Source of the DNA: Nanosynbacter sp.
GTDB taxonomy: Bacteria > Patescibacteriota > Saccharimonadia > Saccharimonadales > Saccharimonadaceae
Direction of reading: 5' to 3'
DNA length: 25,363 bases
Assembly (NCBI GenBank): GCA_029975625.1
Contig: JARKOR010000214.1
Location: 1 to 25,363, forward strand
Numbering within the stretch: position 1 is the first letter of the stretch; the number at the start of each line of letters is the position of its first letter. Under the pieces are notes generated by a model, which was given only the letters and a program-made list of their open reading frames with translations, did no database searches and was not told where the DNA came from. The translations under genes were made by a program, and so were the position numbers. Positions 13,980 through 14,915 of the stretch are shown here, piece after piece.

Positions 13980-14915
13980 ATGAAACGATTAATACTGTTA
14001 TCTGTTATGGTTGCGACGCTCCCGCCTTACGCTATATCCGCTGAAGATATTTCCCCCGAATCTCTTTCGGGAAAGCCCAGTTCTGAGTTGGGTGATTTTG
14101 TTTATTCAGCAATGCCGGATGCTGGTCACGGCTTGTCGTGGGACTGGCAGTCAAACTCAGATATTGTTTGGGCTGACGGTGTTACGCAAACAGCTTCCGG
14201 AATGTCACTCCGCACTGGATTTGCTCGCATCAATGTTATGGGCGTTAAATCAACAGTGCTGGAGAAAAGGAAAAAAGAATTAGGATGGGAGGTTTCCCTT
14301 GGAACGTCAATGCCAGCCAAGTTCGGCCCTGAATATATATCAATGGCACCATCAAAATGTGGTGGATATCTGAATGAGAATTGTACATTCAATCCTGCCT
14401 CATCACTCACGAAGAGAGGCATTGAGTTTCATAAAATCTGCTCAACCATAGCGGGTGGTCCGAATACTACGGATGTGTACGTCGTCAGGGTAGTCAAAAA
14501 AGAAAGCATGTTAATGACATGGGTGAATAGCGCCGGTTCGAGTGCAAGCTCAAGCTGGCTGGAACTGAGAATGTACTCACCTGAAAGTGCAGCATTATAT
14601 TGTGATGAAACTGTAAAGAAAGAATACTCATTCGCCACTCAGGATGGACGAAGCAAGAAGGAATTAGCGCATGACACTAAAATAATTACGGATGCATTAT
14701 CAAAAGCCATTTCCGGAATCGATGGTGCTAATGATGCGGTGTGTCATGCCAGGATATTCGCAGACGGTTATGGTGGCATATCTGCATTTGATGCAAGTCA
14801 GAAAGATAATGACATTGTATTCTGCGAATCCATCATTAATAGGTTGAGTGGCATTCGGCTCCCCTCACCTTCGAAAAATGCATCAACAATAATTAATCTT
14901 GACGTGAAAAACTAA
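13980..14915 (+). CDS. Secreted protein with a TolA domain III-like C-terminus
   Basis: 311 residues from the ATG at 13980 with AGGA 10 nt upstream; an upstream TTG frame is ignored because it would bury the signal peptide (MKRLILLSVMVATLPPYAISA). Residues 22-230 contain four cysteines (127, 135, 154, 208) and match no family I know. Residues 234-311 follow the TolA-III pattern: helix, Cys254, short strands with a DG turn (FADGYGGIS), Cys282, helix, then a proline motif (GIRLPSPSKN; TolA AKIPKPPSQA) and a final strand. TolA-III in the periplasm is the receptor for pIII N1 and for group A colicins and binds TolB. A soluble copy might titrate these ligands. The similarity was judged by eye and the function is inferred. 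Confidence 0.6.
   Translation: MKRLILLSVMVATLPPYAISAEDISPESLSGKPSSELGDFVYSAMPDAGHGLSWDWQSNSDIVWADGVTQTASGMSLRTGFARINVMGVKSTVLEKRKKELGWEVSLGTSMPAKFGPEYISMAPSKCGGYLNENCTFNPASSLTKRGIEFHKICSTIAGGPNTTDVYVVRVVKKESMLMTWVNSAGSSASSSWLELRMYSPESAALYCDETVKKEYSFATQDGRSKKELAHDTKIITDALSKAISGIDGANDAVCHARIFADGYGGISAFDASQKDNDIVFCESIINRLSGIRLPSPSKNASTIINLDVKN

Follow-up and report, generated by a model that had tools for sequence, protein, structure and literature searches.

The stretch of DNA analyzed here (the window; 25,363 nucleotides, positions 1 to 25,363 of contig JARKOR010000214.1 in GenBank assembly GCA_029975625.1, filed under Nanosynbacter sp.) carries at 13980-14915 a gene that serves as exchangeable cargo in a small element, with Xer dif-like sites at both ends, located at the chromosomal dif of Escherichia coli. 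The encoded protein of 311 amino acids (aa) is probably secreted, to judge from its N-terminus, and sequence profiles and a structural model identify its C-terminal part as a diverged TolA domain III (TolA-III). The element, here called the cassette, occurs in types that share a constant chassis and differ in cargo; all three chromosomal cargo types found (A, B, and C, the last being that of the window) end in a TolA-III domain behind otherwise unrelated front parts.

The C-terminal domain of the cargo protein

The cargo gene and its parts are as follows.

13980-14915, plus strand: type C cargo gene, encoding the 311-aa protein with a signal-like start (intact open reading frame; matches in E. 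coli genomes)
13980-14042, plus strand: signal-peptide-like N-terminus, residues 1-21 (by eye; MKRL invariant in aligned homologues)
14043-14594, plus strand: front (N) domain, residues ~22-205 (phrog_24752; Acinetobacter plasmid records; proteins P0010-P0012)
14643-14912, plus strand: TolA-III-like domain, residues ~222-311, with Cys255 and Cys282 (hhalign with shuffles; single-sequence AlphaFold model; PDB alignment)
14886-14906, plus strand: predicted edge strand beta3, residues 303-309, before Lys310 (model strand 90-96; proposed counterpart of APLDFK in TolA)

A profile of four C-termini (the window protein and P0002-P0004) was aligned with six TolA-III sequences using hhalign. The match has a probability of 93.4% (E 2.4e-7, score 42.45), and none of 300 column shuffles reaches that score (maximum 24.5). 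When true TolA is left out of the target the probability is 90.9%, with 0 of 200 shuffles reaching the score, and the negative controls give 0.13% (reversed columns) and 0.21% (an unrelated cassette domain). The result against a single E. coli TolA sequence is weak (17.7% only), and TolA was not found for the window protein by Pfam (0 families at E<=1) or by a search of PDB sequences. A sequence-only reading of this DNA had proposed a secreted protein with a TolA-III-like domain beside dif, and the intact reading frame, the signal-like start, and the hhalign result with its shuffles bear this out. The similarity to PF06519 that it proposed to check holds at the profile level, but the window protein itself falls below Pfam's curated cut-off.

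The evidence on fold comes from a single-sequence AlphaFold model and its structure alignment to the PDB. As that reading had anticipated, the model matches solved TolA-III in its alpha-beta-beta-alpha-beta order, and ranks 1 to 6 among the 452 chains aligned by VIA-align are all TolA-III. Foldseek E-values for the model are weak (0.11 and 0.27), and Foldseek against viral models gave nothing useful. We did not use the alignment to 1TOL, which at its start pairs model residue 1 with chain residue 41 and so extends over part of the pIII half of that fusion, and a whole-protein AlphaFold model from a 5-sequence alignment (mean pLDDT 44) was excluded from all claims about fold. It is highly improbable that the likeness is due to chance or convergence in an unrelated domain. 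The low identity (18-21%), the lack of a Pfam or PDB sequence match, and the Foldseek values would fit such an explanation, but the shuffles and the VIA-align ranks argue against it, as does the presence of Pfam-level TolA-III in sister cargos carried by the same chassis (see below).

Cys255 and Cys282, two of six cysteines in the cargo (127, 135, 154, 208, 255, and 282), are the aligned counterparts of the two TolA cysteines and do not vary among the homologues, and the disulfide between them is putative. The sequence-only reading recognized this pair and numbered its first member 254, one off. The DG turn it described is present at 262-263, but D262 varies (homologues read ANGYG or ANSYG), and the invariant pair near the turn is Y264-G265 instead. 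LPSPS, which begins at residue 294, aligns with IPKPPS of TolA, the placement originally suggested. By eye, the end of the cargo (INLDVKN) resembles the last strand of TolA (APLDFKP); the hhalign alignment stops short of it. In TolA, according to the available portions of PMC4339652 and PMC7391070, beta3 is the site shared by G3p N1, ColN, and TolB, which bind by strand addition through backbone contacts, and colicin A uses beta2, on the opposite side. The affinities given in PMC4339652 are ~40 uM for TolA with TolB and 1 uM for TolA with ColN.

Like TolA-III (PF06519; PDB 1TOL, 2X9A, 3QDP, 6S3W), the cargo domain thus has the alpha-beta-beta-alpha-beta order, two equivalent cysteines, a PxPS-like motif, and a final edge strand; unlike it, the domain is missed by Pfam and has a shorter tail before beta3. 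The protein is not a complete TolA. Hydropathy is no higher than 1.6 in any 19-residue stretch, the signal region included, neither a membrane anchor nor a long helical domain II is visible, the front domain is its own, and the gene lies at dif and not in a tol operon.

The front domain and relatives of the cargo protein

The N-terminus resembles a signal peptide (MKRLILLSVMVATLPPYAISA followed by E; read by eye, without a signal-peptide program). The first protein search with the cargo found seven proteins, of which the full-length ones are a 99% copy, one from Kluyvera ascorbata (75%), and two at 66%; the remaining three are partial or fused. P0005 and P0006 consist of the start of the secreted protein fused to the 119-aa membrane protein encoded by the next gene, apparently via an in-frame deletion. 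In PHROGs only the front domain was matched (phrog_24752, across residues 1-196). Relatives of this domain at 28-30% identity occur in 11 Acinetobacter plasmid records, and they exist alone or inside other proteins (P0010-P0012). Over the first 111 codons, comparison with a relative on a contig from a viral collection (L024) gives dN 0.148 against dS 2.0 (saturated), which suggests purifying selection on the front part of the cargo. That relative is apparently interrupted by an insertion sequence and lies ~4.7 kb from a perfect dif.

No credible match to the cargo protein was found in Pfam, NCBIfam, or PDB sequences. Searches of phage records, of species genomes (by peptide patterns), and of viral contigs (the single protein as query) turned up no relatives either. 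Rfam gave sub-threshold matches only, and promoter-like sites are at chance level (4 found, 3.9 expected).

Architecture of the cassette

The surrounding features of the window are listed below, in order of position.

5482-5509, minus strand: chromosomal dif (28/28 identical to the sequence that we take to be E. coli dif)
5510-13787: filamentous prophage (PHROGs for pI, pIV, replication protein, and pIII)
8986-10203, minus strand: prophage pIII, a pilus-binding domain followed by N1 (PF05357; Pfam, E 8.6e-6)
13727-13753, plus strand: inverted dif-like site of the prophage, which with 13788-13820 resembles a CTX/Ypf-type folded attP
13788-13820, minus strand: 33-nucleotide dif-like site at the prophage/cassette junction (site comparison)
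13821-13994: constant left chassis, up to the first cargo codons (91-100% per 100 bases among chromosomal types)
14936-15295, plus strand: 119-aa protein, second gene of the type C cassette (two hydrophobic stretches by hydropathy)
15288-17237: constant right chassis, ~0.8 kb without a convincing gene and the HNH gene (82-100% per 100 bases, mostly 97-100%)
16109-17056, plus strand: 315-aa HNH-endonuclease-like protein, part of the constant chassis (phrog_2081, E 2.1e-35)
17238-17267, minus strand: 30-nucleotide dif-like site at the right edge of the cassette (site comparison)

The cassette spans 13821-17237 (3.4 kb) between dif-like sites, separate from the prophage, and comprises the cargo, the 119-aa protein, the ~0.8-kb region, and the HNH-like protein. 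No recombinase was recognized among cassette proteins scanned against family libraries, and the same scans revealed no replication or packaging gene. The 315-aa protein has no relatives in viral contigs; its match to Cas7_IIId in PADLOC (0.016) was taken as chance. The cassette is apparently mobile, and its site structure, together with a plasmid copy lying between dif-like sites (see below), leads us to infer that this mobility depends on XerCD.

With dif-like flanks at chromosomal dif and no recombinase of its own recognized, the cassette resembles an integrative mobile element exploiting Xer (IMEX), and a perfect dif on one side and tandem copies are further points in common with IMEX as described in the available text of PMC5357621. 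It differs from them in that no replication, coat, or assembly genes were recognized and in that the cargo is swapped inside a constant chassis. It also resembles the dif/pdif modules of Acinetobacter plasmids, small gene units between dif-like sites (PMC13141974, in part), and one copy of it is plasmid-borne too (pEk72-1), but the constant chassis with an HNH gene and the same orientation of the edge sites set it apart, and no TolA-III cargo appears in the available portion of that account. On one Acinetobacter plasmid (L004), dif-like sites at 3115-3142 and 4264-4291 have perfect XerD arms and lie <1 kb from a type C front-domain relative at 5067-5654.

Exchange of cargo within a constant chassis

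When chromosomal cassette types are compared, ~200 bases at the start and ~2 kb at the end are near-identical (82-100% per 100 bases, mostly 97-100%), and the 1.3-kb core between them is 16-59% identical between types; chassis identity of the plasmid copy falls to 79%. The type A cargo is one 363-aa protein (Pfam TolA at 279-361, E 6.4e-11). Type B has a 134-aa and a 220-aa protein, the latter with Pfam TolA at 132-218 (E 7.4e-8). Both types are above Pfam's TolA cut-off (42.8 and 32.9 bits vs 25).

The 21 relatives of type A that were found include 15 with Pfam TolA and 6 without; 11 of the former keep the type A architecture from end to end at 48-59% identity, and two of these are named Kluyvera and Serratia. 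On plasmid pKFu015_1 (L010), a relative of type B stops before the TolA tail and is followed by a relative of the 119-aa protein; neither an HNH gene nor a good dif-like edge was seen at that locus. Front domains related to those of types C and A occur without a TolA tail on Acinetobacter and Serratia plasmids, in two cases (L005, L022) with a terminase gene a few kb or less away.

TolA-III also occurs in orphan proteins of other mobile elements. One lambdoid phage record matches at 26.9% identity (E 2e-4), and with type A as query there are matches in 298 plasmid records, of which Klebsiella accounts for 255; among the matches listed (40 of 298), 35 are confined to the TolA-III part, 4 cover the front part, and a single one spans the full length. 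Three orphans were read: L018:3860-4288 (lambdoid phage), L019:4947-5306, and L020:4896-5330 (two Klebsiella plasmids). Two of the three have lipobox-like starts (by eye), and proteins of this kind are possibly exclusion lipoproteins. Like the cargo, the orphans (phrog_5772; phage mEp460_ev081; plasmids) join a secreted or lipoprotein-like start to TolA-III; unlike it, they have almost no front domain, and no dif cassette surrounds the three read.

These relatives bear on two other accounts of the cargo. In the first, which we regard as rather unlikely, the TolA-III tail would be a docking tag for TolB or another Tol-Pal partner, and the changeable front domain would do the work at Tol-Pal or the division site (e.g., receptor block or inhibition of an envelope enzyme). 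The same kind of tail on three unrelated front parts would be expected on this account, and the tail-less front-domain relatives on plasmids, two of them near a terminase gene, also favor it, but the front domains have no known function and the orphans do almost without a front part. In the second, which is quite improbable, the cargo would be a secreted antibacterial effector, with immunity to it provided by the 119-aa membrane protein. Type C does have a variable secreted-looking protein followed by a small membrane protein, but type A has no annotated second gene behind its cargo, a related 119-aa protein stands behind a different cargo on the plasmid, and library scans gave no match to a toxin family.

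Distribution of cassettes

Our E. coli census covered 5426 complete genomes. The HNH gene occurs in 95 of them (132 places), and all 60 HNH-positive genomes among the matches listed (95 in all) have type A, B, or C cargo. Type C cargo was found in 56 genomes (in 55 of them with at least 80% of its length matched) at 65 places, all chromosomal, and the best place per genome is at least 99% identical. Type A cargo is present at 37 places in 31 genomes (in 29 of them matched over 80% of its length) and type B in 27 (42 places, one plasmid-borne; 25 genomes over 80% of length), and the union of the three sets of matches is 97 records. It should be noted that the 1354 genomes matching any part of the prophage-containing stretch do not amount to a count of cassettes. 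No E. coli record matches at least 80% of window positions 12200-16000 in one place; C10 reaches 79%.

At E. coli dif, cassettes occur singly or in arrays of up to six. We fetched 13 chromosomal loci (L001-L003, L007-L009, L011-L017), which were picked for variety and are not a random sample. A perfect dif lies to the left of the cassette in 12 of them (the view of L001 begins inside a prophage), and a 30-nucleotide site lies to the right of a cassette in all 13, in L016 with one base changed, as in the window. Some loci (L013, L016) have insertion sequences or other genes between dif and the cassette. The longest array, in ET791 (L014), has five type B cassettes and one type C in a row, and on Enterobacter kobei plasmid pEk72-1 (L023) a cassette lies between two dif-like sites 3.2 kb apart. 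E. coli C, a strain in common laboratory use, holds a type A cassette (L013:6096-8948); WG5 and its derivatives match type A cargo.

Relation to the filamentous prophage

The sequence-only reading was correct that the resident prophage has an N1-type pIII. Its further proposal, that prophage and cargo gene form one system, is not supported: the gene has its own dif-flanked cassette, and no filamentous prophage genes adjoin the cassette in 11 of the 13 fetched loci. CUPF09 (L003) has a filamentous prophage that is broken and situated on the opposite side of the cassette. At the prophage end in the window (13727-13820), a GC-rich inverted repeat is flanked by two dif-like sites in inverted orientation, an arrangement like the folded attP of CTX/Ypf type; inverted XerC/XerD sites are known for Ypf and CTX (for CTX, PMC5357621, in part). 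The prophage gene at 12969-13244 encodes a putative zinc-binding protein of the ECs_2282 family.

A satellite role, in which the cargo would bind pIII at assembly or entry and steer packaging or transfer of the cassette for the element or a helper filamentous phage, is improbable. Filamentous phages use the same attachment site, the cassettes form tandem arrays, and the single 30-nucleotide edge site resembles a VGJ-type attP (as described in the available part of PMC5357621). These points speak for it, but no replication or packaging gene was recognized in the cassette, cassette and prophage share sequence only as matches of 15-33 bases, and most of the fetched loci have no adjoining filamentous prophage genes.

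Possible function of the TolA-III cargo

We tentatively favor, with rather less than even confidence, a role in which free periplasmic TolA-III competes with TolA for its ligands and dampens TolA-dependent entry. The cargo protein would be periplasmic, untethered to the TolQR motor, and would present the TolA-III edge strand beta3 to the TolB N-terminus, the N1 domain of filamentous-phage pIII, and colicin N, competing with TolA for these ligands. The likely benefit would be that filamentous phages dependent on TolA, as well as group A colicins, enter the cell less, and the front domain may contribute a second binding or blocking function. Levengood-Freyermuth et al. reportedly found in 1993 that free periplasmic TolAIII increases colicin tolerance.

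By analogy with published precedents, a decoy or exclusion function is plausible. In the mirror arrangement, periplasmic pIII-N1 makes cells resistant to colicin A and lowers phage uptake by 4 logs, for which sequestration of TolA was suggested as the cause (PMC10424213, in the part available), and co-expression of secreted TolAIII releases a periplasmic protein (PMC6195910, likewise in part). We also count in favor the orphan TolA-III proteins of other mobile elements (a lambdoid phage and plasmids, mostly of Klebsiella).

Several observations weigh against this decoy role. The prophage of the window lies on the dif side of the cassette, and in C10 (L001) two prophages lie to the left of it, with dif outside the view. 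In 12 of the 13 loci the perfect dif is at the left, and we therefore take the leftmost element to be the latest; since the prophage is leftmost in the window and prophages lie left of the cassette in C10, an N1-type phage seemingly entered a cassette-bearing line. This suggests that the prophage integrated after the cassette in the window, and apparently also in C10, so that complete exclusion of that phage by the cassette is unlikely. Recombination, or transfer by other routes, may be an alternative to later entry of the prophage. In addition, the cargo is broken in all three tandem type A copies of ET479 (L009:10235-17758) and in one of three type C copies in L011, shortened or altered copies occur in L014, L015, and L002, and PADLOC models gave no match at E<=0.1 for five of the six proteins scanned, the cargo among them.

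A wider proposal, which we consider doubtful, is that dif itself is guarded: the exchangeable TolA decoys of Xer-mobile cassettes would exclude competing dif-integrating, TolA-dependent filamentous phages together with group A colicins, and exchange of cargo would track the import domains of phage pIII and colicins.

Source of the contig and significance

The contig is probably E. coli DNA, a dif region misbinned in a 1.17-Mb assembly. We draw this from the following observations: the flank at 17270-25363 matches E. coli G3/10 at 99.9% identity (whole query, in three pieces), the assembly has only 1.17 Mb, the 20 relatives searched have 0.6-1.6 Mb, and a search of the assembly with PF06519 found no chromosomal tolA domain. 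The type A protein likewise found nothing in the assembly.

IMEX and dif modules are already known (PMC5357621 and PMC13141974, both in part), and RefSeq annotation already calls the type A and B proteins TolA C-terminal domain proteins. The titles and abstracts among the literature matches listed (in two cases 20 of 39 and 10 of 39), with most subscription journals outside their scope, hold no description of the cassette family, of the exchange of cargo, or of the hidden TolA-III of type C. This dif-flanked cassette family at the E. coli replication terminus thus seems to be hitherto undescribed. Its cargos share a free form of TolA domain III, which in TolA itself is exploited by filamentous phages and colicins. 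If the decoy role is true, the cassettes would represent a periplasmic receptor-mimic defense whose carrier is itself a competitor for the same site on the chromosome. Even without a decoy function, they constitute a natural set of TolA-III variants, one of which is already present in E. coli C.
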